The notes under the pieces are model-generated. The model had not been told where the DNA came from and ran no database searches. It worked only from the letters and a program-made list of their open reading frames with translations. Below, piece after piece: positions 32,901 through 59,312 of a DNA stretch of 64,000 bases (position 1 is the first letter of the stretch; every line of letters starts with the position of its first letter). The position numbers and the translations under genes are program-made. The DNA is from Rubrobacter tropicus (GTDB lineage: Bacteria; Actinomycetota; Rubrobacteria; Rubrobacterales; Rubrobacteraceae): positions 3,968,001-4,032,000 of the forward strand of contig NZ_CP045119.1 in assembly GCF_011492945.1 (NCBI RefSeq). The letters are read 5' to 3'.

Positions 32901-33797
32901 GGTCGAGAGCACCCGGTAGGCGGCCTCCGCCTCCTGCTGGCGCCTCCGGGCGTCCTTCCTGGAGGCGCGTCCTCCGGGGGTCTTGCCGCCCTTGCCGAAG
33001 CCGACAAGCTTCGCGACGGCGTCGAGCGGACCGAAGCCGGAGGCACCGCCGGCGGCCCTAGCCTTCTCGGCGGCGGGGTTGTAGTGGAGGACGGCGTAGC
33101 CCTTGCGCTCGAAGATGGAGAGCCCGGGCAGCTCCTCCTCGAGGTAGGCGGCGTGCTCGGAGGCGAACCTCTTGAGCTTGCGCTCCTCCGGCGGGATCGC
33201 GGAGGCGACGTTGTTCTTGAAGCGTCGGGTGTAGCGCCCCGTCGAGCCCTCCTTGCTCCTGGTGATCTCCATCCACGGAAAGTCCAGGGAGTTGTAGAGC
33301 TCGGTGGCGCTGCGGAAGACCCGCATACGCTCGGTGTCGCCGATCAGGGAGAGGTTCTTCGGAACCACGCGGAACGCGACGACGTAGGTACCGTCGTCGC
33401 AGCGGAGCATCTCCCAGTGGAACTCCTCGGCCGGGATGAACCGCTGGACGACGTCGCGCATCGAGCGCCACCCGCCCTTCGCGTTGTCCCTGGGCCGCTT
33501 GAAGAACACGTCCGGTCGCGTGAAGGAGACGATCTTCCTCCAGATCACGAAGTCCAGGTGGTAGCCGTCTCGCGAGCGGTAGAACGCGAAGAGGAGCGCC
33601 ACGGGGACGATCGGCGAGAGCCAGACGGCCGCCCGGGTGGTGGAGAGGCCGAAGAACCCCGCGAGGTAGTAGCAGAACGTGGCGAAGAAGACGAGCGTGC
33701 CGGCCAGGATTGCGGCCTGGTGGGTCTCGACGGCCACGCCCATGATCTTCGTGGTCTTGCGGGCGCCTGCCAGGTCCTTCACTACCGGCTCGCGCAT
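29955..33797 (-). CDS. VirB4-like T4SS ATPase with PrgI-like N terminus and ParA/MinD-like C terminus
   Basis: 1280 residues. Two N-terminal membrane helices (ILAGTLVFFATFCYYLAGFF and AAVWLSPIVPVALLFAFY, about 28-85) resemble a fused PrgI/VirB3-type subunit. The VirB4 core has Walker A GQTGGGKS at about residue 615 and Walker B CWIDEGWAL at about 865, plus HMIFRHEHQKSARA. From about residue 1035 a further alpha/beta domain begins VHAFTGDGAADAAAAVAKLY and HVLAVDACGGALSDKL, the layout of ParA/MinD ATPases, but without the P-loop lysine motif. It powers substrate transfer and pilus assembly. It is longer than ordinary VirB4 (about 800-900 aa). Confidence 0.9.
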   Translation of the reverse strand: MREPVVKDLAGARKTTKIMGVAVETHQAAILAGTLVFFATFCYYLAGFFGLSTTRAAVWLSPIVPVALLFAFYRSRDGYHLDFVIWRKIVSFTRPDVFFKRPRDNAKGGWRSMRDVVQRFIPAEEFHWEMLRCDDGTYVVAFRVVPKNLSLIGDTERMRVFRSATELYNSLDFPWMEITRSKEGSTGRYTRRFKNNVASAIPPEERKLKRFASEHAAYLEEELPGLSIFERKGYAVLHYNPAAEKARAAGGASGFGPLDAVAKLVGFGKGGKTPGGRASRKDARRRQQEAEAAYRVLSTRANSFYNGFVRLGCRISALTDMEFLAFVLGQTTDWDEDSEEPPTLYEHVSLDPGGYDAIPEEKREQMIREAEAWREEAPPALGIGDLVADKIAPDTAKIFPEFLKVEGRYHTTLFASGWPDEVFFGMLADLNAIEGRVKVVKFIDPRPKKEAQQILGGRVAALRASKSTADDGNVNAEQQREIAEYTNEQALYEINSGRQRYLALSVLIHVEADSEERLYGMAQEVQDTLAGWNVSSQLAREQAWEGLLSSGPFGRNYLSDRYCEFGMLSRPAACLFSYGSQQIDHEDGVFVGVDTRSNSVMTLDTRRLVNPHGVILGQTGGGKSFVIKSVSTRQLMFGNRQVIIDPEGNSRYVRVAKAVGGAYAVIAPGSKHKINPFDLHEDYMNLDLLEDIFGDEDEEDGEEQDVEEAVEAAKAAALDGKAQEITRMVSLMAVTDETNTGAVGGLSGAEASFVERAVYQAYEDAGIRSDDPATHELPAPTFPEFWEIMRGYAEANTIVSDLLEKLWSWHSGSLSKIFDAPTNVDLSNKYLVFQISKVKDRQKAPVMHAILEFLNGVLSNRNEPSDCWIDEGWALLAFPMSAEFTETMYRSGRARDNGMWLASQAVNEFVESRQGNVILDLAATHMIFRHEHQKSARATASIHDLSDEEIDELLNFQPGEGYLIVDQARVPMEVLASEKEKELYNTSPRLEAAYKEKRRNRAETQRRVEDAERDGAAEASRREKSAMPGMPRGGEPMRVHAFTGDGAADAAAAVAKLYGRAARKERLHVLAVDACGGALSDKLSSASVPNPPDPFLRRGSPDPEGLGEHASLTSLSALRVVHPPENGSLPASSLHEAAGEIFDLCVVACGGTESAYAEDWLQAADEVVACSTEGAEEALEAALAAEETLASNGTILAVTGASGPPVATFPKGDGEPLRPLYSLGPGASSGTQADKGLRTLARALVAPKDDPTAPDAGPKANGSANGTATREMDAEEEANG

Positions 33798-41678: not shown

Positions 41679-42722
41679 CTAGCGGTCCGCGGGCCTCTCG
41701 CCCCCGTAGGACCTGCCCGACGACACCGCGCTGCCCAGGCGGTCCGAGACCACCATGCCGCTCACGCCCTGGCGCACGCGCCCGTTGCTCTTGCCCAGCC
41801 CCTTCGCGTACTCCGCCTTGAGGTCCTCGTCGTCGGGGCGATCGACGGCGTCGGGCAGCAGCTGCGACCACGCCTTCTGCGCCTGAGCGTCCTGACCGTC
41901 GGCCTCCAGCTGCACGGCCTCCTCGGCGAGCCCGGCCAGCTTCTCGAGCCTGGCTGCCGCGTCCTTGCGCCGCGAGGTGTTCACGCCTATCGCGCCGGAG
42001 ACGCCGGCCGGGTCTTCGGTCAGGCCGTCCTTGAGGCTGTCAGCCCCGTGCCGGAACAGAACGGCGAGCCCATCCTGCATCGAGGCCTTCTCCTTGAGGC
42101 ACTCGAGCCCCAGCGCGGTGAGGTTGAACGAGCAGACCGTCTTCCCGTGCCTCTTGTTCGCGTGCTTGGCCAGCCGGATGACGCGCGCGAAAGTGGACTT
42201 GGTTGCCTTGTTGCGGCCCCGGACGAGCCGCGTGTGCTCTTCGGGATGGGATGCCTCCCAGGTGTTCTTCTTGAGGTCCGGGATCCACAGCCCGCCGTCC
42301 TCCCTCGTCAGGGCCACGATCACGTCGGCGGTGAAGTCGTCCGCGTCGGGCCCGACGGGGTCGTTGAACGTAACCTTTATGGCCCTGCGCCCGCCGACGT
42401 AGAAGCGCGCCTCCGGGTAGTCCTCCTTGAGGCGCTCCCTGAGGCGCTTTCGCACCTCCTCCACGATCCCCTCGGGGCCATCACCATCGGGGCCCAGTTC
42501 CGGGTAAGCCCTCCTGTCCAGGACGACGCCGAGATCCGCGTCTGCCAGCGGGCTGTTCTGGGTGCCGTGGGCCAGCGAGCCCGAACCGAACGTGCGCAGG
42601 GTGCGGAACTCCTCCTCGACGATCCTCCTTATGAGGTCGCGGCGGTCCCGCGCCGCCGCGAGCACCTCGTCGTCGACCGCTATGCGCGCCCTGGCTTCCT
42701 CGAGTATCCCGGTCATGCCCAT
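41679..42722 (-). CDS. CD-NTase (SMODS nucleotidyltransferase), CBASS cyclase
   Basis: 347 residues with an AAGGAGG box before the ATG at 42722. FGSGSLAHGTQNSPLADADL carries the GS motif and the DxD (DAD) of polymerase-beta-like nucleotidyltransferases; a third acidic residue is likely in DDFTADVIVA. The helical C-terminal half (KSTFARVIRLAKHANKRHGK, FNLTALGLECLKEK) fits the OAS/SMODS fold. It should make a cyclic di- or trinucleotide upon phage infection. The C terminus ends GGERPADR, and whether it is an E2 target is unknown. Confidence 0.88.
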   Translation of the reverse strand: MGMTGILEEARARIAVDDEVLAAARDRRDLIRRIVEEEFRTLRTFGSGSLAHGTQNSPLADADLGVVLDRRAYPELGPDGDGPEGIVEEVRKRLRERLKEDYPEARFYVGGRRAIKVTFNDPVGPDADDFTADVIVALTREDGGLWIPDLKKNTWEASHPEEHTRLVRGRNKATKSTFARVIRLAKHANKRHGKTVCSFNLTALGLECLKEKASMQDGLAVLFRHGADSLKDGLTEDPAGVSGAIGVNTSRRKDAAARLEKLAGLAEEAVQLEADGQDAQAQKAWSQLLPDAVDRPDDEDLKAEYAKGLGKSNGRVRQGVSGMVVSDRLGSAVSSGRSYGGERPADR

Positions 42723-42923
42723 CCCATCCTCCTTACGTTCTCTAACCGTTCACCAATCGTACTGAGAACTGATTTTAGCAGACGCGGAGGGCGGCGTCCG
42801 GTCGCGACCACAGCGATGGGGGTGAGCGCAGTTTGTGGGCGGGGTCTGCCTGATTTCGGCTAACATCCCGGGCATGGGCGAGCGGCCGACTTGCGGTGCA
42901 GAAGCTTGAGTTGGGAACTCACG

Positions 42924-43733
42924 ATGGATGGGGTGCGCGCCAGGCTTTCTTCGGGCGCGATGTTCTCTTCCGGCGGGGTCGACCTTTCGGGCGTGCGCTT
43001 CGTGAGGCCGGGCGGGCTGGTCGCGCTGTCTAGTTTGATCGAGGCCTGGACCGCGGAAGATCGGCCGCTGGTCGTAAGGCTGCCGCCGGACGGCGTCGCC
43101 GGATACATGCATCGCATGGACTTCTTCGCGCGTTTCGGCGACAGGCTGCTCTACGACAAGGACGTGACCCGCTTAGAGACGGGCGCCCGTCACGCCGGCG
43201 CGTCGCTCTCCGAACTGCGCACCGTGCGCACGGAAGACGAGGCCGCGCTCGTGACGCGGGACTTTCACCGGCTCCTCTCAGAAGGCAACCTGGCGAGGGC
43301 CGAGGTCAACCGCTGCTGCACGGTGCTTTCCGAGTTCTTGGAGAATGCGGTCGTCCACGCCGAGTCGCGCTGCGGCGCCTACACCGCCATCCAGACCTAC
43401 CGGATGGGGGGCGAGAGGGTCTGCGTCGCCGTCGCCGACGCCGGCATCGGGATACCCGCCACGCTGCGGGATCATCCCCAGGCCGCCATGCGCGGCATTT
43501 CGACGGACGGCGGACTCATCGAGCTGGCCGCGGTCGACGGGGTGTCGAGGCTGGGAGACGCCCGCGGCGGTGGCTTCGGCAGCGCGCTCAGGTCGGTCGG
43601 GCGCGGGAACGGGGCGATGACCGCCTGGTCCCACGGGGGGTGGGTGAGGTTCTCGGGGACGTCCGGCCCGCGGACCGAGACGGCCCATCCCCTCCGCGGC
43701 ACCTGCGTGGAGGCCGAGTTCCCGCTCGGGTGA
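42924..43733 (+). CDS. GHKL (histidine kinase-like) ATPase with STAS-like N terminus
   Basis: 269 residues. The N-terminal part (VDLSGVRFVRPGGLVALSSL) resembles a STAS-like strand-helix unit. The ATPase domain has the N-box LSEFLENAVVHAES, the G1 box VAVADAGIGIP and a G2-like GGGFGSAL. There is no phospho-acceptor His box, so it is an ATPase of the MutL/Spo0J-kinase type rather than a full kinase. It is paired with the STAS-like/HTH gene 70 bases downstream. Such pairs recur in defence-rich regions, but the function is not known to me. The start is uncertain; a TTG at 42891 is possible. Confidence 0.75.
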   Translation: MDGVRARLSSGAMFSSGGVDLSGVRFVRPGGLVALSSLIEAWTAEDRPLVVRLPPDGVAGYMHRMDFFARFGDRLLYDKDVTRLETGARHAGASLSELRTVRTEDEAALVTRDFHRLLSEGNLARAEVNRCCTVLSEFLENAVVHAESRCGAYTAIQTYRMGGERVCVAVADAGIGIPATLRDHPQAAMRGISTDGGLIELAAVDGVSRLGDARGGGFGSALRSVGRGNGAMTAWSHGGWVRFSGTSGPRTETAHPLRGTCVEAEFPLG

Positions 43734-43803: not shown

Positions 43804-44442
43804 ATGACCGCCTTGAGCACGCCCGCCGTGGACCTGGGGTTGCTGGACGACGTCCTGCCGTTGACCGGAGCGGACGCGTCGGGCGGCGTCTTGGCGGGGC
43901 GCAAGAGCGGCGGGGCGGAGCGGGAGCTCTTGCGTAAGAGACTCGAATCGTACCCGCCGGGGTCCGCGCTTGGCGTGGACTTCCGCTCTCTGGACTTCAT
44001 GAATTTCTCCTATGCCGACGAGTGCTTCGGCGCGCTGGCCCAAGAGATGTACGCGGGCGGGATCAAGGACCGCTACGTGGTGCTGATCGTCTCGCCCGGC
44101 GATCAGGAAGACATCCTCGAGGAGATCCAGGTGTCCCTCGAACGGAGGAAGCTGGCGATGTTCTGCGCCGGGAAGGCGGAAGGCGTGGCCGACCTGCGCG
44201 TCGTCGGCGAGCTGCCGGACTACCTCGCGCACACCCTCGAGTCCGTCCGGCCCGGGGACACCAACGAAGCCCTGGCCGAGAGGCTCGACATCAAACTCAC
44301 CACCTGCAGCAACCGCACCGACCGCCTCGCCAGGCTGCGGCTGCTGCGCAAGCAGCGCCGCCAGGGGGCGCTCGGCTACAAGCAGTTCGAGTTCTTCCCG
44401 GTGTTGCCCGCCGTGGGCTTCGAGAGCCCGCAACCGGAATAA
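43804..44442 (+). CDS. STAS-like (DUF4325-type) protein with C-terminal HTH
   Basis: 212 residues with an AAAGGAG box four bases before the ATG. LGVDFRSLDFMNFSYADECF followed by GIKDRYVVLIVSP is a STAS-like domain of DUF4325 type. The C-terminal part (TNEALAERLDIKLTTCSNRT, DRLARLRLLRKQRR) is a winged HTH. Together with the upstream GHKL ATPase it suggests a small phosphorelay- or anti-sigma-like switch (SpoIIAA/SpoIIAB style), which is an inference. Confidence 0.7.
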   Translation: MTALSTPAVDLGLLDDVLPLTGADASGGVLAGRKSGGAERELLRKRLESYPPGSALGVDFRSLDFMNFSYADECFGALAQEMYAGGIKDRYVVLIVSPGDQEDILEEIQVSLERRKLAMFCAGKAEGVADLRVVGELPDYLAHTLESVRPGDTNEALAERLDIKLTTCSNRTDRLARLRLLRKQRRQGALGYKQFEFFPVLPAVGFESPQPE

Positions 44443-44576: not shown

Positions 44577-45572
44577 TTGACCCATTACGCGCACGCCCGG
44601 GACATAGACCCCGGTGACGCCATCGACGCCGAGGAGGTGGACGATCTCGTTGCCCGGGTGGTGAACCCCCTGGCGCTTTCGTTCGAGCATTCGGCGGATC
44701 TGGGGGCGACGTTCGGGGCGCTGATGGCGGACATGCTCAGGCAGTTTCTGGGCACGCACCAGAGCATAAGGATGCTCATGAGGAGCCGCGGGGAGAACCC
44801 GCCGGCGATGGCGGACGCGATGTCGCTCGCCCGGGAGCAGATCGAGAAGGTCTACGTGGTGGCGTTGCTACTGGAGGACCCGGAGCATTGGACCGAGCGC
44901 TATCTCAAAGACGAATGGCGCAAGGCCTACGAGCGCCACCTGCTGGAGGCCGACGAGCGTTCCGGTTTGGCGAGGTACGACGACTTCCTGAAAGAGCAGG
45001 CGTCCGGCTTGGAGAACGAGCGCAAGGGGCTAGGAATCTCCGACGAGGAGAAGGAGTTCGTGGAGTGGCGCTACCGCAACCCGCCGGGGACGACCACGCC
45101 GCCGCACTTGAAGGCCGCCTCCAAAACCATGGCCAACTTCCCGATGCCCGCTGAGGTGATACGCGAGGTATCCGACCCACAGCTCAAAGACGCTCTGCGG
45201 CGCTGGCAAAGGGAGTACGGTTATTTCTCTGGATACAGCCACTCGGGGTTCCGCAAGCTGATGCCCGGCTTCATCGAGGGCAACATGAAACTCACCACCG
45301 CCGAGAAGGAGAAGGTCGTCGAGACCGAGTACGCGCAGAGCATCATGATCAGCTACCTGGCCGCGGGTCTCGCCTGCGCCGAGGCGGCGTCGAGGGCGTT
45401 GCCGCGGCGGGGCCCGACGGGTCCTTTGACCGCCCGGGCGGTCGGCGACGCCGACCTCTTGGTCAGGTTGTCGGATCTATGGGACCTGCTCGATCGGTCC
45501 TCCCTCGTCGGGAGGGCCCTCTACGAGATGCGCGCCCGCAGCATTCTGCCGCCGAAGATCGGGGCGCCCTAG
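44577..45572 (+). CDS. helical protein of unknown function, possibly defence-related
   Basis: 331 residues from a TTG with a GGAGG box. It is almost entirely alpha-helical. Noted features are MADMLRQFLGTHQSIRMLMR, ALLLEDPEHWTERYLKDEW, and a conserved-looking YFSGYSHSGFRKLMPGF with a His that could be catalytic or structural, as in DUF5677-like families. I cannot assign a family firmly. It lies between the GHKL/STAS pair and the tyrosine recombinase, whose ATG follows its stop without a gap. Confidence 0.65.
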   Translation: MTHYAHARDIDPGDAIDAEEVDDLVARVVNPLALSFEHSADLGATFGALMADMLRQFLGTHQSIRMLMRSRGENPPAMADAMSLAREQIEKVYVVALLLEDPEHWTERYLKDEWRKAYERHLLEADERSGLARYDDFLKEQASGLENERKGLGISDEEKEFVEWRYRNPPGTTTPPHLKAASKTMANFPMPAEVIREVSDPQLKDALRRWQREYGYFSGYSHSGFRKLMPGFIEGNMKLTTAEKEKVVETEYAQSIMISYLAAGLACAEAASRALPRRGPTGPLTARAVGDADLLVRLSDLWDLLDRSSLVGRALYEMRARSILPPKIGAP

Positions 45573-47816: not shown

Positions 47817-48359
47817 TTAGCCAGGACGCGTCCCGGTTTCCAGGTAGCGCTCTAACTGCGCTCGGATTAGTCGTGGTGGCCGCCTTTCTTGGTCTTGCAG
47901 GCTACGGTACTGCATCCATGCCTCCTCCGAAGAGAGTAGCCCTATGCTGAACGCTCGGTGCAGGACGTAGAGCGTGCCTCTGACGGAGACGTTGTGTCTC
48001 CTTCCGAGGCGGACAGCGTGAGGGTCATTGCTGAGTACGATGGATCCGGGCCTGGAGTGGCGCGCCACATGCACCAGGCTCGCCTCCCCGGCGGCGTCAC
48101 CCGCCGCCGCCCTTCGACGGCCCATGATGGCGATTTGGTCGCGCTCTATCTGGGGCAACAGACGCGCGTCCACGGGATCGACCTCGAGGAACGGGAACAG
48201 GCTCGCCGCGCCGCCCCCCGCTTGTTCCAGCGGGTCGCCGAACTCCGCGTCGACGAAGGTCGTGGTCCAGCCCTCGCCGTCGAGGACGCGCGCCAGCAAA
48301 GGCTCTAAGCCAAGTAGGCGGATGTCTATCAGCACGTTAGTATCGAGACCGGAGAGCAC
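47817..48359 (-). CDS. PIN-domain protein (putative RNase toxin)
   Basis: 180 residues. It begins MLSGLDTNVLIDI with the first PIN aspartate; GEASLVHVA and LSNDPHAVRLG provide the further acidic residues, and RRHNVSVRGTLYVLHRA is the typical C-terminal helix region. PIN domains are metal-dependent RNases, often toxins. It is the second gene of an operon whose first gene is an XRE-ImmA/IrrE protein, 15 bases upstream. The pairing resembles toxin-antitoxin modules with metallopeptidase antitoxins. Confidence 0.8.
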   Translation of the reverse strand: MLSGLDTNVLIDIRLLGLEPLLARVLDGEGWTTTFVDAEFGDPLEQAGGGAASLFPFLEVDPVDARLLPQIERDQIAIMGRRRAAAGDAAGEASLVHVARHSRPGSIVLSNDPHAVRLGRRHNVSVRGTLYVLHRAFSIGLLSSEEAWMQYRSLQDQERRPPRLIRAQLERYLETGTRPG

Positions 48360-48374: not shown

Positions 48375-49571
48375 CTACAGCGGCGCTTCCGCCGCGTCCA
48401 GGCGGATACCGATCTGCGCCACCCAGCGGTAGATGTCCTCGGGTGGTTGATGCAGCATCTCCGCCGCGCCGTCCACGGTGATCGCGCCCTCTTCGAGCGC
48501 CCGCGCAACCCGCGCCCTCATGGCCGGCCCGACCTCGGAGGCTCCGCGCTCCGCGTCCGCGGTCACGGGCGAGAGCCCCAGACGCCTCTTGGCCTCCCTG
48601 AGCATCTCCGGATTCTCCGACATCTCCTTTATGGAGTCGGCGGTGGTTCCGCCAACAGCGTGGATGCGTCCGAGGTTCACCAGTCTGTAGGCCGCCGCTT
48701 GGTCGCTTACCCCGAACGAGGCGGCGAGCCAGACGATCCAATCTATAGGACTGGGACGTTGGCCCAGCCGACGCTCCAGGCGTTGCCAACCGTCCGCGAC
48801 GCCGGCTTCGGGCATCAGCAGCCCCGCGGCGAAGGCGTTGGCCTCGCGTTCCCGAGGCGACCTGCCCCTCACGGTTTCGTCGACGACCATCTCGCCGCCG
48901 TGGAGGTGACCTAAGGCGAGATGCCCCAGCTCGTGGGCAATGGTGAACCGCCTTCGGACGCGCGGCTTGTCGCTGTTGATAAGAACGTAGGCTACCCCCG
49001 TCTGCGGGTCCAACGCGGAGCACCCTTCCGGGGATCGCTCGTCGCCGCCCAACGGCATGCGGGCGACGATCACGCCCAACTCGTCGGCCAAGACGGCGAC
49101 GTCCGCTATGGGCGAATGCCCTAGCCCGTGGCGCTCCCGGAAAAGATCCGCGCCCTGGTAGCCCCTCTCCAAATCCTCCAAATCTTTGGGCAAGTCGAGC
49201 GCAGGAAAGTCCTGCGCGTCGTACGCATCGTCTTCGTCCTCGCGCAGCCAACGATCGTCAGCGACCAAGCGCTGTAATCGCCGTTTCATGGCTCCAGCCT
49301 TCGGTCCCAGGGCTCCCGCCGTGGCCCTCATGGCGACGGTAAGGGGAACCTCGCCCTCCGCTGTGGGATCTTCCAGCAAGTCCTCGGTCGAGGTGCCATA
49401 AAACGAGGCGAGCCGCTTAACCTCAAGCGCCCCCACCCCCCGCTTGCCGCGTTCCATCTTCGCCACGGCCGTGTCGTCCAGCCCGATGGCGCGTCCCGCC
49501 TCCTCTTGCGTGTATCCCGCCCTCTCCCGAGCCCTACGTAGCCGTCCGCCCAGTTCCTCCTGCGTAATCAT
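48375..49571 (-). CDS. XRE HTH plus ImmA/IrrE metallopeptidase
   Basis: 398 residues; the ATG at 49571 lies six bases after GGAAGG. The XRE helix-turn-helix is at about residues 3-55 (LRRARERAGYTQEEAGRAIG). The ImmA/IrrE domain (about 140-300) has the zinc site AHELGHLALGH. The C-terminal domain (about 300-398) is helical. In related systems such proteins repress and are cleaved or inactivated upon stress. It is divergent from the ubiquitin-like operon, with an operator-like palindrome between, so it may regulate that operon as well as the PIN gene. Confidence 0.88.
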   Translation of the reverse strand: MITQEELGGRLRRARERAGYTQEEAGRAIGLDDTAVAKMERGKRGVGALEVKRLASFYGTSTEDLLEDPTAEGEVPLTVAMRATAGALGPKAGAMKRRLQRLVADDRWLREDEDDAYDAQDFPALDLPKDLEDLERGYQGADLFRERHGLGHSPIADVAVLADELGVIVARMPLGGDERSPEGCSALDPQTGVAYVLINSDKPRVRRRFTIAHELGHLALGHLHGGEMVVDETVRGRSPREREANAFAAGLLMPEAGVADGWQRLERRLGQRPSPIDWIVWLAASFGVSDQAAAYRLVNLGRIHAVGGTTADSIKEMSENPEMLREAKRRLGLSPVTADAERGASEVGPAMRARVARALEEGAITVDGAAEMLHQPPEDIYRWVAQIGIRLDAAEAPL

Positions 49572-49595
49572 CGGCACCCTTCCTTTCCTGTCTGC

Positions 49596-49615
49596 TATAA
49601 TAGCAAGTAGTTGCT
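49596..49615 (+). promoter_or_regulatory. divergent promoter with palindromic operator
   Basis: TATAAT (49596-49601) is followed at once by AGCAA-GTAG-TTGCT (49602-49615), a perfect inverted repeat. The region lies between the XRE-ImmA gene and the Ubl gene, so the XRE protein is the natural candidate to bind it. Confidence 0.6.
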
Positions 49616-49666
49616 GATATGTACGTGACCCGTGTCACAATGCGGTCACCCGCCACAGGAGGTTAT

Positions 49667-49924
49667 ATGCCCAAGAACAAAGAAAAGCTGACCATCGTCG
49701 TCAACGGCCACCCGACCGAGGTCGAGGCCAACGAGAACGCGCCGATCCGCACCGTGATCCCTAAGGCCCTCGCGGAAAGCGGAAATACCGGCCGGCCCCC
49801 CGAGGATTGGAAGCTGACGGACGAGGACGGGAACCCTCTCGATCTTGGTCGCAAGATCGAGGACTTCGGGTTCGCCCCGGGCGTGACGCTCGTCTTGAGC
49901 CTCAGGGCCGGCGCGGGTGGCTGA
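49667..49924 (+). CDS. ubiquitin-like modifier (single beta-grasp, C-terminal GG)
   Basis: 85 residues from the ATG at 49667 with an AGGAGGT box. The fold pattern is beta-grasp: KLTIVVNGHPTEVEANENAP, then the helix TVIPKALAESGN, WKLTDEDGNPLDLGRKIEDF and VTLVLSLRAGAGG. The protein ends exactly in Gly-Gly, as needed for E1 activation without processing. It is the first gene of a four-gene operon with E2, JAB and E1 genes, as in Bil/Bub antiphage systems. Confidence 0.85.
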   Translation: MPKNKEKLTIVVNGHPTEVEANENAPIRTVIPKALAESGNTGRPPEDWKLTDEDGNPLDLGRKIEDFGFAPGVTLVLSLRAGAGG

Positions 49925-50513
49925 GGAGGTCTTGGTCGACCCCGCGGTATCGCGGGCAAAGTTCGACAGAGAGGTGGCCCAATACCGGGAACGCGAGGAC
50001 GAGTACGTCCGCCGCGGCTGGTTTCTCGTAAAGGCGGAGTACCCAGAGGTGTTCGTCGTCTTCGGGGCGCCTCAGCTTAGCCCGCCCGCGCTCGTCTTTG
50101 GGGCGCTTCTCGACTTCACGGACTACGACCTGTGGCCGCCCTCCGTGAAACTGGTCAACCCCTTCACCAAAGAACCCTACAAGAACAAGGATCTGCCGCG
50201 TCGTCTTCCTCGCCAGCCCACCGTACCCGCCGATCAAGCGCTAGCAGGGCAGGTGCAATTCATACAACCTCAAGACTTGATGGTAGCCCACGACCCTGAA
50301 GACGTTCCGTTTCTGTGTATCCCGGGCGTACGCGAGTACCACGAGCATCCGGCGCACTCCGGCGACTCTTGGCTGCTCCACAAAGACAGCGGCGAAGGCA
50401 CGCTCTACTTTCTGTTGGATCAGATCCATAGGTACGGTGTCCAGCCCATCGCGGCTTACAACGTGGTCATGCAGCCGATCATTCAGTACGCGCAGAACGA
50501 ATTGCCGGAATGA
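49917..50513 (+). CDS. E2-like ubiquitin-conjugating protein
   Basis: 198 residues from a GTG overlapping the Ubl gene by 8 bases. An N-terminal helix (SRAKFDREVAQYREREDEYV) precedes UBC-like strands (FLVKAEYPEVFVVFGAPQLS). The motif VPFLCIPGVREYHEHP holds the probable catalytic Cys, followed by SWLLHKDSGEGTLYFLLDQI. It matches prokaryotic E2-like proteins linked with Ubl and JAB genes. It would transfer the modifier from E1 to targets. Confidence 0.78.
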   Translation: MAEEVLVDPAVSRAKFDREVAQYREREDEYVRRGWFLVKAEYPEVFVVFGAPQLSPPALVFGALLDFTDYDLWPPSVKLVNPFTKEPYKNKDLPRRLPRQPTVPADQALAGQVQFIQPQDLMVAHDPEDVPFLCIPGVREYHEHPAHSGDSWLLHKDSGEGTLYFLLDQIHRYGVQPIAAYNVVMQPIIQYAQNELPE

Positions 50514-50998
50514 CGGGTCTCACGTCGGTGGCGTCGGTCAGGGTTCCGCGGGAACTGGCGTTGGAGGCCCACGACTACTTGCGGCGCGTCGGTCAGCACG
50601 GGGCGGAGGGTTTCGCGCTTTGGGCAGGGGAGCTCCGAAACGGCGTGTTTCTCGTCACGCGCACCCGCATCCCCGAGCAACGCCACCTTCGTACGGAGTC
50701 CGGCGTCCTCGTGCTGGTCGAGGCGGAGGAGCTGTTCAGGACTAACATGTGGCTCTACAGGGAGGGCTTGACGCTCATCGCGCAGCTGCACAGTCACCCG
50801 ACCGACGCGTACCATTCCGAGACCGACGACGCGATGCCGATCGTGGCCGCGGTCGGCGGGCTCTCCCTGGTTGTGCCGTACTTCGCGCGCCATCCTTTCT
50901 CGCTCGCGGACTACGCGGTCTACCGCCTGACACCCGGGGAAGGCTGGGTCGAGTTGGCGGACGAAGAGGTAGCTGCCCTGATCGTGATCGAGGACTAG
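50510..50998 (+). CDS. JAB/MPN+ metallopeptidase (deubiquitinase-like)
   Basis: 162 residues. EGFALWAGE supplies the upstream Glu, and LHSHPTDAYHSETDD gives the zinc-binding HxHP ... SxxD motif of JAMM proteases, with six rather than seven residues between the second His and the Ser. It overlaps the E2 gene by four bases (ATGA). In Bil systems the JAB protein removes or processes the modifier. Confidence 0.88.
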   Translation: MTGLTSVASVRVPRELALEAHDYLRRVGQHGAEGFALWAGELRNGVFLVTRTRIPEQRHLRTESGVLVLVEAEELFRTNMWLYREGLTLIAQLHSHPTDAYHSETDDAMPIVAAVGGLSLVVPYFARHPFSLADYAVYRLTPGEGWVELADEEVAALIVIED

Positions 50999-51002
50999 GC
51001 GC

Positions 51003-52529
51003 GTGGCGCTGGCGGACTTCTTCGACAAGACGGCGCGGGCGGCGTCGCAGGTCTTGTCGGGGTACGATCGGGGGGCCTTCGAAGACGTGCTGAACTCTTC
51101 CGTCGTTGCCGTGACCTTCGACGACGCGGCCACGGGGTCGCCAGAGGGCAGGATCACGCTGGAACTCGCTGTCAACCTCCTCTCGCGGCTCTACCCCCGG
51201 CTGGCCGTGGTGCCCTCAGGAGGGGAAACAGAAGGGCTCGCCGAAGATTTGGTGTCCTTGGCACGATCCATCAACCCGAAGATCGACATCGAATCGGGCC
51301 TCGAAGGGGCCGATATCTGTCTGTCGGTGGGCAGCACCCCAGCCACCGGAACGACGCCGGTCGTCTATCTCGGCTCCGACGGGTGGGTGGCGCAGATCTC
51401 CACCAAAGACCCGCAGGGATCAGGCCCTACGGAGAACCCGTTCGGCGCCGCGGCGGCCGCCTGTCTCGGCGCCGCGAACGCCTTCCGCGCCGTCTTCTCC
51501 TCGCAGCTACCCAAGGGTAACCTCGACGACGACCTATCCCTCTCTTTGCTTGACTACAAACCCTTCGCGGCAAAGCCTATCAACACCGAACTGGCGTCCG
51601 TCGACTTGAGCGAGAGTCACCTGATCGGCCTCGGGGCCATCGGCAACGGGGCCGTGTGGACGCTCTCGAAGGTGAAGGGAGTCAGCGGCACGTTACACCT
51701 CGTAGACCACGAAGAGGTGGACCTATCCAACTTGCAGCGCTACGTTCTGACCACCGCGGCGGACGTGGGCGCCTCGAAGGTTGCCTTGGCAGCGGACATG
51801 CTGCAGGACACCGGGTTTGCTGTACGCACGCACCCCGAGCGCTGGGGCGTCCACTTGGCGGCTCGAGGCGACTGGGACCTCCAAAGGGTAGCCGTGGCCG
51901 TGGATTCGGTTGAAGACCGAATCGCAGTGCAGGCCGCGCTGCCCCGCTGGATCGTTAACGCCTGGACGCAGCCAGACGACCTCGGCATCTCCAGGCACGC
52001 TTTTCTGGGCGATCAGGCCTGCCTAGCGTGCCTATACCTGCCCGAAGAGAAGCGCAAGAGCGAAGCCGAGATCATGGCAGAGGTCTTCGGTTTCTCAGAG
52101 GAATGGCGGGTGGTCGGAGAGCGTCTTTACAAGGGCACACCGACGGACAGAGCGTTTCTGGAGAGCATTGCCGCGGCTCAGGGCATCGCAATAGAGCAAT
52201 TGCTGCCCTTTGAGGGCAAGCACCTGCGAACCTTGTACCAAGAGGGCGTGTGCGGGGGCGCGGTTATCGGTTTTGGCGACAGAGCCGACGACGAGCAGGC
52301 GGAGGTGCCCTTGGCGTTTCAATCCGCCCTCGCGGGGGTGATGCTCGCCGCCGATCTGGTCACCAACGCTGGCGGACTAAATACCCTCCCACCCCCCGTC
52401 ACAACGAGGATGGACCTGCTGAGGCCTCTGGGTACGGTGTTGTCGTCTTCGCGTCCAAAGCACCCGTCAGGAAGGTGCATTTGTCAAGATGATGACTACG
52501 TGAGGGCATACCAACTTAAGTATGTGTAG
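51003..52529 (+). CDS. E1-like activating enzyme (ThiF/HesA fold)
   Basis: 508 residues from a GTG four bases after the JAB stop. The N-terminal half (about 1-205) is an inactive-like or accessory domain. The ThiF core (about 205-400) has LIGLGAIGNGAVWTLSKV (ATP-binding glycines), LVDHEEVDLSNLQRYV and a later CLACLYLP. The C terminus has GRCICQDDDYVRAYQLKYV. It should adenylate the Ubl C terminus and pass it on as a thioester. With the three preceding genes it completes a ubiquitin-type cascade. Confidence 0.88.
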   Translation: MALADFFDKTARAASQVLSGYDRGAFEDVLNSSVVAVTFDDAATGSPEGRITLELAVNLLSRLYPRLAVVPSGGETEGLAEDLVSLARSINPKIDIESGLEGADICLSVGSTPATGTTPVVYLGSDGWVAQISTKDPQGSGPTENPFGAAAAACLGAANAFRAVFSSQLPKGNLDDDLSLSLLDYKPFAAKPINTELASVDLSESHLIGLGAIGNGAVWTLSKVKGVSGTLHLVDHEEVDLSNLQRYVLTTAADVGASKVALAADMLQDTGFAVRTHPERWGVHLAARGDWDLQRVAVAVDSVEDRIAVQAALPRWIVNAWTQPDDLGISRHAFLGDQACLACLYLPEEKRKSEAEIMAEVFGFSEEWRVVGERLYKGTPTDRAFLESIAAAQGIAIEQLLPFEGKHLRTLYQEGVCGGAVIGFGDRADDEQAEVPLAFQSALAGVMLAADLVTNAGGLNTLPPPVTTRMDLLRPLGTVLSSSRPKHPSGRCICQDDDYVRAYQLKYV

Positions 52530-52836: not shown

Positions 52837-55443
52837 TCAGCCCGAAAGGGGAAGCGTACGCAAGGGCGTACGCATGAGAAAGCCAAGCAACGGGGTGGGA
52901 AGCAGGGCGGCTCGGTCCAACTCCTCGCGGATTACCTCGACGGCCGCCTCCCGTTCGGCATCGCTTGTCAGAGAGCGGATTCGCCGCAGCGTCGCCTCCA
53001 ACCTCTCGGCTAAATCCCGTAGCTCATCGATGCGCACGTAGTAGAGGTCGCCGGCGTTTTGAGCGGCGTTCTCCTTGATGGTGGTGCGGGGTGAGGCGAG
53101 CACGGTGATTACCTCGGCGTCCGTGGCGACGTGGCAGTTGTTGCCTACCCAGTTGGAGTGGGTACCGGCTTGGCGCACTGTGTTGATCGAGATAGCGTTT
53201 TCGGGGGTTTCGTCGCTCTTCGCCTCGAGCGCAACCGCGAGCCCATCGCCGAGGAGCCACACGCCGTCGGGCGCGCCGTCTTCGTCGCTGCGCCTAGAAG
53301 ACTCGAACCCGAGCAAACTGCCCAGCATCTCCAGCCCGCGCTCGAAAGAAGAGCTGTCGTCCTTTCCGATGAGATCGTTGAGCTCCGCCACCTTCCTATC
53401 GAACCGTCTGCCATGGAAGCCGAGCCCGGACAGCGTCTGGAAGACGGACTCGCAAGCGCGAGCCGTGCGGACGTCCGACGAGGAGGGCCGCGCGCCAGGG
53501 TCTACTTCGCGGGACAGCTCCGCGAACCAGCTGACGGACCTGGAAGCGCGAGCCGCCCGTCCGAAGAGATCCCTGGCTTTGGCGAGCAGGTCCTGGTCTT
53601 CCTGCTCCTGGCCCGCCATCCAGGCCGCGCTCCCGGCGAGGTAGTGCCACCAAGCCCGATACGCGGCGGTCTCTCGACCGCCCGACAGGGAGTCGGAGAC
53701 ACCCCTCGCCTTTTCTAGCGCCTCCGCGTAATCCTTCCTCCAGAGGTCGTACGCGAAAGAAACCTCCTTGGGCGCGGCCTCCATGAGGACCCCGGCCACG
53801 GGATCAGGAATCTTCTGCGCTTTCTCCCGAAGGTCACGGATGTTTTGGTCGACCGTGTCCGCTTCTTCGCCTTGTTCGCGGAAGAGTCGGACCAACTCCA
53901 GCAGGCCTTCGGGATCGAGGTCGTAGCTGTTCTCGATCCCGTACTCGAGCTCGGCCTGCAACTCGGGGTGCATCCCCGAGCGGTTCTCCCGCTTCGCGCA
54001 GAAATCGAACAGCCGTTGGCCGACGGCCAGCACGACCGCGAAGTCAGAATCGTTGCGGCTGCAACGGCCGGCGCCTTGGGTGAAGCGGGTGCGCAGGCGA
54101 TCCCTCAACAGAGAGTCTGCCCCCAGCCTCGTCAGAAGGAAACGCTCCTGGAGGTTGGTGGCGGCCGGGAGGCCGTCCATGACAAGCAACCGGCACGCCT
54201 CGTCGGGCAGGTCTATGCCGTCGTAGCGGTTCGCCAGGACGAGAGCGACGTTCGTCCGAGAGGTGAAGGGCTCGAGCGATTCTCCCACGTCCCCGGACGA
54301 CAGGACGGTGATGCCCCGAGAAGAGAACCGCTCTTTGGCGACCGACGCGGCAGACGCGGTCGGGGTCAAAGCGAGCGTCCTGCCGCTCTCCGTCGCCGCG
54401 AGCGCGGTCGCCTCCTCGACGTCTTCCCCGCCCATTGACAGGTTCGGGAACAGGAAAAGCCGTCTTCCCGAGCCCTGCTTCTCCCAACCCTTCGGAGCCG
54501 GTATGCGCTCTATGCGCGGCACGCCGATGATGCGCTCCAACTCTCCGCCCTCGCCCAATGTCGCCGACATGTAGACCCGTTGGTTCGCCGACTCGAAAGG
54601 GGGATGGGTCAAGGTCGGGGGGACGAGGGGCCGCAGGAGAAGCCCTTGCCAGGATACGAACAGGCAGCAGGCGTGGAGGTGCCCGCGGATCATGGACCAG
54701 GGGTATCGTTCGGCGGTCCGCTCATCGAGGCCCTCATCGAGCAGCCCGCGGATCTCTGCGGCGCGCTCCGAGAACCTGGGATGCGGCAGCATGTCTACCC
54801 TCGCGCGCACAGCCGGGGAAGCGTCGTCGTCGAGCATGCCCTCAACAAAAGCCTCTTCCATCTCCGGCTCGAGCAGCCGGAGACAGCGACGGTACAGGGG
54901 CCCCATCTCGTTGCGCGAGATGCTCACCGACCAAAGGCTCGCGACGTAGTCCTCCGCGGCGTGCGCGTCGTCGAGGACTACGGTCTTCGGTTCCTCGATG
55001 CGGGGGTTGGTGTTGAAGATCGCGCTGTAGGTGGACACGCCGACGGCGTTGCCGAGGTGGAAGTCGTTGAGGCCTTCGTACTCGCGAGGGAGAAGGACGC
55101 GGGCCTCTATGCCGTAAGTCCTGGCATGCTCGCCCACCTGCCAAGCGAGCTGGCGCGTCGGGCACAGGTAAAGCGCGCGCTCGTCGAACTTACGGCGCCG
55201 GTACTCGGCTATGAGCAACCCGATCAAAGTCTTTCCCGTCCCGGTGGGAAGTTCCAGGGCGACGTCGCGTTTGTTCGGGTAGCGTTCGTCGTACTCACGC
55301 AAGATGTCGGCCTGATGCGACCAGAGGTACTGGATCCCGGGAGCCTTTCTCAAGTCCTTGAAAAGCGTCTCCGGGTCCGGGGGCCTCGTGGTCGAGGCGC
55401 CTACCCTTCGGAAGCCGGATCTCCTCGGCCGCTGTTCCGTCAT
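52837..55443 (-). CDS. SF2 helicase fused to a PD-(D/E)xK nuclease
   Basis: 868 residues. The helicase domain has LELPTGTGKTLIG (motif I), YLCPTRQLAWQV (Ia), VVLDDAHAAEDY (DDAH, motif II) and GAGRCSRNDSDFA (motif VI). The C-terminal domain (about 690-800) has GLEMLGSLLGFES, PDGVWLLGDGLAVALEAKSD and VRQAGTHSNWVG, a restriction-type nuclease with D and ExK. It stands alone, convergent to the conjugation operon. It is likely a single-gene defence enzyme or a partner of that system. Confidence 0.85.
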   Translation of the reverse strand: MTEQRPRRSGFRRVGASTTRPPDPETLFKDLRKAPGIQYLWSHQADILREYDERYPNKRDVALELPTGTGKTLIGLLIAEYRRRKFDERALYLCPTRQLAWQVGEHARTYGIEARVLLPREYEGLNDFHLGNAVGVSTYSAIFNTNPRIEEPKTVVLDDAHAAEDYVASLWSVSISRNEMGPLYRRCLRLLEPEMEEAFVEGMLDDDASPAVRARVDMLPHPRFSERAAEIRGLLDEGLDERTAERYPWSMIRGHLHACCLFVSWQGLLLRPLVPPTLTHPPFESANQRVYMSATLGEGGELERIIGVPRIERIPAPKGWEKQGSGRRLFLFPNLSMGGEDVEEATALAATESGRTLALTPTASAASVAKERFSSRGITVLSSGDVGESLEPFTSRTNVALVLANRYDGIDLPDEACRLLVMDGLPAATNLQERFLLTRLGADSLLRDRLRTRFTQGAGRCSRNDSDFAVVLAVGQRLFDFCAKRENRSGMHPELQAELEYGIENSYDLDPEGLLELVRLFREQGEEADTVDQNIRDLREKAQKIPDPVAGVLMEAAPKEVSFAYDLWRKDYAEALEKARGVSDSLSGGRETAAYRAWWHYLAGSAAWMAGQEQEDQDLLAKARDLFGRAARASRSVSWFAELSREVDPGARPSSSDVRTARACESVFQTLSGLGFHGRRFDRKVAELNDLIGKDDSSSFERGLEMLGSLLGFESSRRSDEDGAPDGVWLLGDGLAVALEAKSDETPENAISINTVRQAGTHSNWVGNNCHVATDAEVITVLASPRTTIKENAAQNAGDLYYVRIDELRDLAERLEATLRRIRSLTSDAEREAAVEVIREELDRAALLPTPLLGFLMRTPLRTLPLSG

Positions 55444-55799: not shown

Positions 55800-58700
55800 T
55801 CACGGGCCCGTTCCGATCGACGGTAGGGCGACGACGGAGCCCGCCGCCCTTCGGTAGTTCTCGTCCAGCGCCGGGCCTAGGAGGAGTAGCGCCGAGATCC
55901 TCCCGACCGTGGCCGCGAACTCGCGTGCTTCGTCCGGCCGCAGGTCGCGGCCCAGGAGCCTCTTCTCCCTGTACGACAGCCACTTCTTCAGGACTTGGTA
56001 GCCGCCGACCGTATAGGCCCACGCTCGCTCGGGCACCCCCGACCACGCCGCGACGTCGTTCAAGTGTATCTCGAGCACCTGCTCTCCCAGAAGCTCCAGC
56101 GCCGCGCCCGGCTCCAGGCCGAACGCCTCCGCGGTTCTACCCAGCGCCTCGAGCTCCTCCGGGGTCCGGTCCCGCTCGGAGAGGGTGCCCCCGCCGGGCA
56201 TCGCGATGCCGCCGGTCCCCGGGTAGCCCCAGCCGGCCGTCACGGCCAGGTCGCCGCGGGCGGGGTCGAGCATCGCGCCGTCGCGCCGGCGGACGGACCC
56301 GAGGCCGCGGACCCCGCGAGATCCCTCCAGGTCCGCGTAATCTCCCGCCCCCAGGAGCCCGGCCACCCGCATCCCGAGCGCCGCGGAAGCCAGCAGCGCC
56401 TCTCGGCCGTCGGGGAGCGGGACGCGCGGCCAGCCTATCCACAGTCCGCCCGAGTTCTCCGAGAGGTAGGCCGGAGAGTGGCCGACGGCGAGCGCGTGCA
56501 TCCAGAGCGCCCCGGCCTCCTCCGGGCTCGCATGCCCGCCTTCTATGCCGAGGCTGCCGAGGTAGTCGCACGCCGCCGGCGAGATGTTGGCCGCGCCGGC
56601 GGCCGGGGCCTCGTGGTCGGAGAACAGGTCCTCCGCCGCGAGCTCCGGGGACTTCAGCGGGAAGCAGGCGCTACCCGGACGCGTCAGGTGCCAGTCGGGT
56701 AGATCGGCGGTCGCGTAGAACGGCGTGCCCTCGCGCGAGCGCTCGGCCTTGCGGCGGCTCGTCATGAACAGGTTGTCGGCCCCGAAGGCCCGGAATAGAG
56801 GCTCCCTCTTCTCGTCCAGGAGTTTGGTCTCCGGGTGCCAGTAGGCCCACCGCGCGTCGAAGGGTCTGTAGGCGTACCGGACAACTTCGCCGCTCTCGAC
56901 GCCGCGCCCGAGCAAGCGCCGGCGCGTCTCGGCCGGGTCGAAGCGCGCGGACCGCTTCATGAGCGAGGGAACGATCCTGCGAACCTCCGCGTCGCTCATC
57001 TCGCCGTCGAAGTAGGCTTCCAGCCGCTCCTCGAGCCTGTCCCGGTCTATCGCCACCAGGTCGAGGTCCCGGCTGGTTTTCACGCCCGGGTATATCAGCG
57101 GGAAGAGGGCCGGCAGCGGAGCCCACGCCGCGTAATCCTCGTTCATCTCCAGCGCCGCGAACGGGAGTCCCAGCGCGAGCTCCGGCTCGACCTCCTCGTA
57201 GTGGTCCCCGTCCGTCGCTTGCCGGGCCGGCGCGAGGAGCTGCTCGCGCTTGTGCCGGCCCCAGAGGTCCCGGTAGCAGACCGTCTGTACCCCCTCGTGC
57301 TCCGCCTGCGGCCTGCGCGCGAGCGTCGCGATGGCGGTGCCGATCCCGATGCCGGCGGGGTTGGACGCCGTGGAGAAGACGCTCGGGTCCGGATCACCGT
57401 CGGGCGTGCGCTTGCCGGTCTTGTAAGCGTCTCCGTTCAGGGAATCGATCCAGATCTCGTCGAACGCCTCCAGGTACCGCTCGCGCATACCCGGGTGTGA
57501 GAGCCCGTCGAGCCAGGAGTAGTTGGAGATGAAGGAGACCACCCCCCGCCCCGTCCCCTCCACGATCTGGCGCTCGGCCATCCTGAAGAACCTAACGTAG
57601 AGGTCGTTGAGGCCGTGCCCCTCGGGAGCGGGCGCCCGCTTTGTGGTCCTGTAGGCGTCCGAGAGCGTCCGCTCTTCGTCCATCCCGAGGCCGGCGAAGG
57701 CGTTGTAGGGCGGGTTGCCCAGGACCACCAGGATCGGCCTCCCGCGCTTGACCTCCTCCGCGGCGTCGCGCTCCTCCTCGAACTCCGGCAAAGGCAGGCG
57801 CCGCTTGGCCCCTTCGCGCGGGTCCCAGCCGGTGAGGGCGTTCGTGAGGTAGACGCCGGCGCGCTCGCCCCGGCGTTCCCCGTCCGTGCCGGGGGTATCG
57901 CCCGGGGCGTCGCCGGCGAGCGGGGCTCCCATGTTCTGCAGCAGGAGCCCCAGCTGGAGGTGGGCGACCACGAACGGCGCCGGCAGGAGTTCGAAGCCGA
58001 AGACCCTCTCGGTGGCCGCCCTCTTGAGGTCTTGAGCGATCAGGCCGTCGTCCTCCCCTTCGGCGAGCGTCTCCCGGATCTTCTTGAGGACCTCAACCAG
58101 GTAGGAGCCCGTCCCGGTGCAGGGGTCGAGCACGTAGACGTCCTCGTCGGCGAGGCCGTCGTCTATGCCGAGCACGTCGCGCAGCACCCTGTCCGTCCTC
58201 TCGACCTGGTACCGGACGACCTCCCGCGGCGTGTACCAGACGCCGAACTGCTTCCTGAGGTCCGGGTCGTAGGCTTCCAGGAACGGCTCGTAGAAGTATT
58301 GGACCGCCCCCTCCTCGTCGAAGTTGGCGAAGAAGGCGGCCCGGTCCACCCGGTTGAGCACCCCGGAGGTGCGCGTGAGCATGCCGTCGAGTCCCAATGC
58401 CCCCACCCTGGAGGGCATGACGAGCTGCTCGAAGAGCGCTCGAATCATCGGCACGTTCAGGATGTACGCCGCCACCCTCCAGTCGAAGGCCTCTTCGGAG
58501 TCGTGGGGCCGCTGCTTGCTCCACAGCACCCAGGCGCTGAAGACCCCGTAGAAGAGCGTCTGCACCAGCGTCGATCTGAAGAAGTGCTCGCCCCTGCCCC
58601 CCTCGAAAGCGACGCCCAGTGCCTCCTCGAGCGCCTCGCGCACCTGGGAGAGCGCCCGCAGCTCCCCCGCCCCCTCCACGAGCGCCAGCGCCTCCCTGGC

Positions 58701-59312
58701 GTGGGACGCCAGGAACCACGCGAGGTCGCGCGGCTGGGAGAGCGGCGCGCCGTGGAGCATCGCCCTCTTCAGGAACTCCCACAGCGCGGGCCCGTTCTCG
58801 TCGGCCGTCCGGCGGTGCGACTCCGCCGCCCGCCAGAAGCCGGCGGCGTCCCCGGCCAGGCGGAAAGACTCTATCTCGACCGGGTCGCCCGAGCGGTCGC
58901 GGCCCACGAGGACGAACTCCCTGTAGTTCGTGACCAGCACCTGGCCGTACCGGTCCAGGTACCTGCCGACCTGCTCGCCGCGGGAGACCTCCCCCGCGTC
59001 CTCGCGCACGCCCTTCACCTCGATCGCGCCGCGGGCGGGCAGCTGGGCCGGGAAGCCGGTCGGGCCGTCCGTGGTCGGGTCAGCGCTTCCCCGGCGCCGG
59101 CGCAGCTGGTCGGCCGTGAAGAGGCCGCCGTCGGGGATTCCGGCGCCGCGGTTCCTTATGTTCACGATCGCCCTCACGGACGGGTCGAGCTCGCGGCCCG
59201 CGTCGTTCAGGAGGCCCTGCAGCGCACCGTAGCCGGAAGTCTCAGCCACCGCCTCGCCCGAGGCGTGGTCCTCCCACAGGCTCCTCAGATACCTCCCGAC
59301 GCTCTCGCGCAC
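55800..59312 (-). CDS. type IIG-like restriction-modification enzyme (N6-adenine)
   Basis: 1170 residues. The N-terminal nuclease region (about 40-110) has IPDGGLFTADQ and GAIEVKG, a PD...ExK pattern. A helical connector follows. The N6-adenine methyltransferase domain has YVLDPCTGTGSYLVEVL (motif I, about residue 400), VFGFELLPAPFVVAHLQL, and LVVLGNPPYNAFAG (NPPY, about 530). The C-terminal third (about 700-1170) would contain target recognition. Nuclease and methyltransferase in one chain fit type IIG. No separate specificity subunit or BREX/DISARM partners are nearby. It has a GTG or ATG start at 59312. Confidence 0.82.
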   Translation of the reverse strand: MRESVGRYLRSLWEDHASGEAVAETSGYGALQGLLNDAGRELDPSVRAIVNIRNRGAGIPDGGLFTADQLRRRRGSADPTTDGPTGFPAQLPARGAIEVKGVREDAGEVSRGEQVGRYLDRYGQVLVTNYREFVLVGRDRSGDPVEIESFRLAGDAAGFWRAAESHRRTADENGPALWEFLKRAMLHGAPLSQPRDLAWFLASHAREALALVEGAGELRALSQVREALEEALGVAFEGGRGEHFFRSTLVQTLFYGVFSAWVLWSKQRPHDSEEAFDWRVAAYILNVPMIRALFEQLVMPSRVGALGLDGMLTRTSGVLNRVDRAAFFANFDEEGAVQYFYEPFLEAYDPDLRKQFGVWYTPREVVRYQVERTDRVLRDVLGIDDGLADEDVYVLDPCTGTGSYLVEVLKKIRETLAEGEDDGLIAQDLKRAATERVFGFELLPAPFVVAHLQLGLLLQNMGAPLAGDAPGDTPGTDGERRGERAGVYLTNALTGWDPREGAKRRLPLPEFEEERDAAEEVKRGRPILVVLGNPPYNAFAGLGMDEERTLSDAYRTTKRAPAPEGHGLNDLYVRFFRMAERQIVEGTGRGVVSFISNYSWLDGLSHPGMRERYLEAFDEIWIDSLNGDAYKTGKRTPDGDPDPSVFSTASNPAGIGIGTAIATLARRPQAEHEGVQTVCYRDLWGRHKREQLLAPARQATDGDHYEEVEPELALGLPFAALEMNEDYAAWAPLPALFPLIYPGVKTSRDLDLVAIDRDRLEERLEAYFDGEMSDAEVRRIVPSLMKRSARFDPAETRRRLLGRGVESGEVVRYAYRPFDARWAYWHPETKLLDEKREPLFRAFGADNLFMTSRRKAERSREGTPFYATADLPDWHLTRPGSACFPLKSPELAAEDLFSDHEAPAAGAANISPAACDYLGSLGIEGGHASPEEAGALWMHALAVGHSPAYLSENSGGLWIGWPRVPLPDGREALLASAALGMRVAGLLGAGDYADLEGSRGVRGLGSVRRRDGAMLDPARGDLAVTAGWGYPGTGGIAMPGGGTLSERDRTPEELEALGRTAEAFGLEPGAALELLGEQVLEIHLNDVAAWSGVPERAWAYTVGGYQVLKKWLSYREKRLLGRDLRPDEAREFAATVGRISALLLLGPALDENYRRAAGSVVALPSIGTGP

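Follow-up and report, generated by a model that had tools for sequence, protein, structure and literature searches.

A BilABCD ubiquitin-like conjugation operon in Rubrobacter tropicus and its divergent HTH–ImmA/IrrE neighbour

Introduction

Four closely packed genes in the genome of the actinobacterium Rubrobacter tropicus raise the question of whether they encode an entire ubiquitin-like conjugation pathway, to which of the known bacterial classes such a pathway would belong, and whether the regulator-like gene beside them has anything to do with it. They lie in a stretch of 64,000 nucleotides (contig NZ_CP045119.1, 4.4 Mb long, positions 3,968,001 to 4,032,000), referred to here as the window. 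A preliminary description, made from the sequence, had read them as a complete Ubl–E2–JAB–E1 operon related to the Bil and Bub antiphage operons, and had named as distinctive the single beta-grasp modifier, its already exposed GG terminus, a spacing variant of the JAMM motif, and the location on a conjugative element next to an XRE–ImmA/IrrE regulator.

Operons of this type were described by Iyer, Burroughs and Aravind (2006; PMC1779556) as type 6c (row 6c) from rhizobia, with pNGR234a as the prototype; the “predicted metal binding protein” of that operon is now the E2 BilB, and the E2 fold was then assigned to the N-terminal part of the E1. The Rubrobacter operon is the same operon, with a JAB, the metal binding protein and an E1 that has an extra N-terminal domain, but the 2006 listing was confined to alpha-proteobacteria; the NGR234 locus was recovered among the relatives collected here (L027).

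A complete operon of the Bil kind

The operon occupies positions 49667–52529 of the window on the plus strand and consists of four intact open frames in the order Ubl–E2–JAB–E1, an order identical in the other Bil loci; bilA and bilB overlap by 8 bases, bilB and bilC by 4 bases, and 4 bases separate bilC from bilD, as in translationally coupled genes. The best match of each protein among all solved-structure sequences was the corresponding Bil chain, with 84 bits for BilA (8TYX_A/8TYZ_B), 181 for BilB (8TYZ_C), 160 for BilC (8TYX_B) and 508 for BilD (8TYZ_A, aligned over residues 1–507), in every case over the whole or nearly the whole length, and the runner-up structures were far weaker, other BilA entries excepted. 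Conservation of single residues was followed in bilA, bilB and bilC from 25 further loci plus the window (26 sequences) and in bilD from 24 plus the window (25 sequences), the loci coming from Bradyrhizobium, Methylobacterium, Sinorhizobium, Mesorhizobium, Rhizobium, a Ramlibacter MAG and a genome of the same phylum (bilA–C only). Chance open frames were ruled out by homology, the Pfam and PADLOC matches, the invariant catalytic residues and the kept gene order.

The first gene, bilA (49667–49924, plus strand), is preceded by AGGAGGT a few bases 5′ of its start; an in-frame ATG at 49619 would extend the protein, and no evident ribosome-binding site lies close to it. BilA is a single beta-grasp ubiquitin-like modifier of 85 residues that ends in ...RAGAGG, with G85 as the reactive glycine and no tail behind it, and it matches PF10790 (DUF2604) with 99 bits. 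The beta-grasp fold, on which the preliminary description had made its reading depend, is present in the AlphaFold2 model (pLDDT 86), whose top Foldseek matches were 8tyz_B and 8tyx_A, followed by ubiquitin and ISG15. The C-terminal glycine is invariant in 26/26 sequences. Neither of the two features of BilA presumed to be distinctive proved to be so. The single beta-grasp domain is the common form, as in 8TYX/8TYZ, the rhizobial plasmids (where the annotated lengths are near 98–101 residues) and Bradyrhizobium, and a long BilA is clearly encoded only in two Methylobacterium loci (L005 and L007; 251–252 residues); the Methylobacterium protein (8U38, 9D5B) shares the C-terminal Ubl domain but carries further N-terminal sequence, to a total of about 250 residues. 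A tail-less C-terminal glycine occurs likewise in four relatives (L015, L017, L023 and L030), with one extra residue past the reactive glycine in the remaining 21, and the solved BilA chain is also one residue longer. Since the penultimate residue is alanine in most relatives and valine in one, GG is not a family rule and the last glycine alone is invariant. Mapped on the BilD tree, the tail-less form requires three changes, a count of origins made unsure by the long branches, and a single origin may be compatible with it.

BilB (49917–50513, plus strand; 198 residues) is an E2-like conjugating enzyme with the CEHH site C134-x5-E140-x-H142-x4-H147, that is, a catalytic cysteine followed by Glu at +6, His at +8 and His at +13. 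The spacing is identical to that of the CEHH motif reported for BilB, C138/E144/H146/H151 (PMC11354881). The match to PF14455 (Metal_CEHH) reached 211 bits; the PADLOC BilB profile matched weakly (E = 0.009), presumably a reflection of the more remote members used to build that profile. All four residues of the site are invariant in 26/26 sequences, so the conservation of the E2 cysteine, the other point on which the first reading had been made to hang, holds. The AlphaFold model of BilB is moderately confident (pLDDT 71, falling below 50 at residues 142–146, beside the active site); its best match was 8tz0_C (E = 2e-12), the only others below E 0.001 were 8tz0_D and 8tyz_C, and eukaryotic E2s were among the next, weak matches.

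The third protein, BilC (50510–50998, plus strand; 162 residues), is a JAMM/MPN metalloprotease, i.e., a deconjugase or processing enzyme, which carries E33 and the motif HSHPTDAYHSETDD and matches PF14464 (Prok-JAB) with 29 bits and the PADLOC BilC model with 55 bits. Its E33 corresponds to the position mutated (E33A) in the deposited 8TYX BilC, and E33, H94, H96, S103, D106 and D107, the residues of the HxH...SxxD(D) signature, are invariant in 26/26 sequences. The supposed spacing variant of the JAMM motif is in fact the rule: each of the 25 relatives has HxH-x6-SxxDD, and so has the solved BilC.

BilD (51003–52529, plus strand; 508 residues) is an E1 with an N-terminal adenylation-like domain, an active ThiF adenylation domain and a Cys domain. 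It matches PF14459 (Prok-E2_C) with 115 bits and PF00899 (ThiF) with 49 bits; the N-terminal domain that Pfam names Prok-E2_C is an inactive adenylation domain in the solved BilD. Invariant in the 25 sequences are G209/G211/G214, D235, N243, R246, K259, D301 and C417, and so are the cysteine motifs C340-x2-C343 and C492-x-C494. C417 is the putative thioester cysteine, being invariant and suitably positioned.

Membership in another ubiquitin-like class, either Bub or type II CBASS with its Cap2 E1–E2 fusion, is very improbable for this operon. The chemistry of E1, E2 and JAB is common to Bil, Bub and CBASS (Cap2/Cap3), and there is a CBASS-type cyclase at a distance of about 7 kb, but the cyclase is outside the operon with at least six genes between, and the E2 is not fused to the N-terminus of the E1: it has a gene of its own and carries the CEHH motif of BilB, and it is accompanied by a beta-grasp modifier instead of cyclase conjugation. 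The PADLOC BilD model scored 87 bits against at most 26 bits for the E1–E2 (Cap2-type) models. As regards Bub, the best matches of all four proteins are Bil proteins, in a comparison set that included neither a Bub model nor a Bub sequence.

Homology, gene order, the folds of BilA and BilB and the conserved catalytic residues thus place the four genes with the Bil system, and the profile and structure-model comparison with Bil, part of the check that had been proposed, agreed with the description of a complete operon of this kind. The likeness to BilABCD, the bacterial ISG15-like system (8TYX, 8TYY, 8TYZ, 8TZ0), extends to all four proteins, the CEHH E2, the single beta-grasp BilA, E33 and the JAMM spacing of BilC and the full-length match of the E1, and the gene order is that of the rhizobial relatives; the differences are an identity of about 40–53% and a host in the Rubrobacteraceae rather than the Pseudomonadota. 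The operon is ordinary in kind, its presumed distinctive features occurring in known relatives.

Proposed mechanism

With high confidence, the operon is regarded as a complete and apparently functional BilABCD system that would conjugate BilA to, and deconjugate it from, most likely a phage structural protein; the conjugation, the phage target and the antiphage effect are proposed by analogy with the studied Bil systems. BilD would adenylate the C-terminal glycine of BilA and then take it over as a thioester at C417, from where BilA would be handed to C134 of BilB, with a histidine of the CEHH site aiding catalysis, and finally be conjugated to lysines of the target protein. The most likely target would be one of the structural proteins of the infecting phage, for instance its central tail fibre, and the progeny would be left defective. 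This follows a published summary, according to which the central tail fibre of the phage receives the Bil modifier and infectivity drops (PMC12948488), although the phage target in the host of this operon may be a different one. Because BilA already ends at its reactive glycine, BilC would be dispensable for maturation and would act mainly to strip BilA off conjugates.

An alternative is that the conjugation machinery is real but directed at cellular proteins in a stress response, as suggested for Bub, whose operons have not been demonstrated to protect against phage and may have a role in a global stress response (PMC13373217). Such a role would suit the many close relatives that are carried by rhizobial symbiosis plasmids, in one case near nif genes. 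The nearest relatives are, against this, Bil operons with reported antiphage activity, and further defence genes surround the window operon, which is carried by what is probably a mobile element; a cellular target is therefore considered unlikely, and action on a phage protein is preferred.

Distribution and genomic surroundings

The BilB domain was found in 1/40 genomes of the class, namely that of the window (the class as sampled being one family), and in 2/297 genomes of a sample of the phylum. As the sole copy among the 40 class genomes, the operon was probably acquired horizontally, and its nearest relatives, which are alpha- and beta-proteobacterial, are consistent with this. WhiB, looked for as a marker of the Actinomycetota, gave a negative result, which is not decisive. 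Neither a tblastn search with BilD in the phage record collection nor a scan of the proteins of viral contigs turned up a relative.

The location on a conjugative element could be upheld in part. A VirB4-like ATPase (29955–33797) scored 204 bits against the NCBIfam conjugation ATPase, below the cut-off, and its plasmid match in Rubrobacter marinus (39% over 80%) was much better than any other. Together with weak matches to TrbL/VirB6 and to the TraG C-terminus, a tyrosine integrase and a resolvase in the region, it supports a probable integrated conjugative-type element with an end near 64 kb, at the start of genes for amino-acid biosynthesis; no relaxase was found.

The surroundings resemble a defence island. 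The SMODS/CBASS-type oligonucleotide cyclase (41679–42722, minus strand) matched NCBIfam CBASS_cyclase_b with 117 bits at a cut-off of 200. Downstream of bilD follow a DEAD/DinG-like helicase (52837–55443, minus strand) of the PADLOC candidate defence family PDC-S28 (400 bits), a type ISP/type IIG restriction-modification enzyme of 1170 residues (55800–59312, minus strand), and a protein of 955 residues (60287–63154, minus strand) that had no Pfam or NCBIfam match and, with a GSGKS-like P-loop seen by eye, may be a NACHT-type NTPase. The cyclase, the PDC-S28 helicase and the type IIG enzyme favour the antiphage reading of Bil.

Divergent to the cyclase, a CapK-like GHKL-kinase/STAS protein (42891–43733, plus strand) and a protein with STAS and winged-helix domains (43804–44442, plus strand; CapS-like by eye) resemble the CapK+CapS pair of PMC13373217, and they stand upstream of a weak DUF5677 match (44577–45572).

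Other Bil loci

A second, diverged Bil operon is present in a genome of the same phylum (G044; L056:7693-10640), with a BilA that keeps one residue after the GG. The possibility that this operon lacks an E1 was rejected, tblastn having placed bilD at L056:9081-10640; behind it lie PIN-like, HTH-M78, tyrosine integrase and TIR-domain-like genes (L056:10829-15011). In Rhizobium etli p42a, TIR-domain and caspase-family genes are found directly downstream of Bil (L030:8265-9623), and caspase domains occur in other Bil neighbourhoods too (3/54 neighbours scanned). In Bradyrhizobium algeriense, one bilD is broken into several frames with no bilA–C detected near it (L021), and an intact operon lies elsewhere in the genome (L014).

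The M78 proteins upstream of Bil in four relatives (L005:1427-6078, L007:2719-6081, L015:4520-6298 and L017:4505-6289) come in various contexts. That of L005, from Methylobacterium, is fused to a UvrD helicase and a PD-(D/E)XK domain, and those of Bradyrhizobium (L015, L017) are part of a three-gene set with a protein that is sigma-factor-like by eye.

The HTH-M78/PIN neighbour and the possible control of bil

Divergent from bilA, and 89 bp away from it, lies the gene of an XRE-type HTH–ImmA/IrrE (M78) protein with an HELGH motif (48375–49577, minus strand), matching PF06114 with 64 bits, HTH_31 with 51 bits, and the PADLOC models capP and capH with 78 and 33.5 bits, respectively. It is followed on the same strand by a gene recognised by eye as a PIN-like putative nuclease or toxin (47817–48359, minus strand); the window copy had no Pfam match and the G044 copy a weak one to DUF3368. 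With an HTH repressor domain and an M78 protease domain with HExxH beside an immune operon, the protein resembles a fused CapH–CapP and is possibly a regulator. The likeness to CapH+CapP and CapK+CapS (PMC13373217) lies in the combination of an HTH repressor with an M78 protease beside an immune operon of the ubiquitin-like kind, but in the window the two are joined in one chain, have a PIN-like partner and occur elsewhere without Bil.

The XRE–ImmA/IrrE neighbour is real, but the pair it forms with the PIN-like gene is not confined to Bil loci. The same pair is found in a genome without Bil (G077), with 64% identity for the HTH-M78 protein and 60% for the PIN-like protein, and is therefore an independent module. 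In G044 a diverged pair is convergent to Bil, downstream of bilD, so that no promoter is shared. The pair in the window and that in G077 have in common a conserved 23-bp palindromic site, which in the window is AGCAACTACTTGCTATTATAGCA (49593–49615, minus strand), between the HTH-M78 gene and bilA. The pattern AGCAACTAYTTGCTATWATMGCA, derived from these two site sequences themselves, has a single occurrence in the window genome and a single one in G077, both immediately ahead of the HTH-M78 gene, and is absent from the other 39 relatives searched; none is expected from shuffles of the window for AGCAACTACTTGCTATTATAGCA. The spacer also contains three perfect palindromes of 13–14 bases with spacers of 3–4 bases (0.13 expected; 0/2000 shuffles reached three), a spacer range that was picked after looking, the excess over spacers of 0–8 having p = 0.0125. 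Scanning the region for sigma-70 promoters gave no site. The conserved site is taken to be part of the HTH-M78/PIN module, which suggests that the module is portable and perhaps stress-controlled.

These observations are in keeping with a toxin–antitoxin-like HTH-M78/PIN module that is unrelated to bil and became its neighbour by chance, an explanation that competes with regulation and not with the identity of the Bil operon, and that is held to be rather probable. Several points speak on the other side. In the window the site is situated between the two genes, in the 89-bp spacer, where it covers a TATAAT oriented towards bilA. M78 proteins stand near Bil not only in G044 but within about 4 kb of bilA in L005, L007, L015 and L017, a raw occurrence without a base rate for defence islands. 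Finally, CapH+CapP, CapW and CapK+CapS control related immune operons; CapW or CapH+CapP adjoins 219/544 Bub operons and CapK+CapS precedes five Bil operons, which provides a precedent for such coupling (PMC13373217).

Repression of bil by the HTH-M78 protein is accordingly possible. The further proposal, that a portable stress-sensing HTH–ImmA/IrrE and PIN module landed 89 bp upstream of bilA with its operator over the promoter and brought bil under DNA-damage control, is tentative and stands on the doubtful side.

Implications

The window adds to the known examples a Bil operon that is well anchored, sits on a probable conjugative element and is far removed from the rhizobia, the usual hosts of the type. 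With a modifier that would need no processing, the deconjugase role of BilC could be separated from the confounding maturation step. If the proposed coupling were true, ubiquitin-like conjugation in an actinobacterium would have been placed under DNA-damage control by a portable module, and the conserved site in the shared spacer makes a possible stress control of Bil directly testable.
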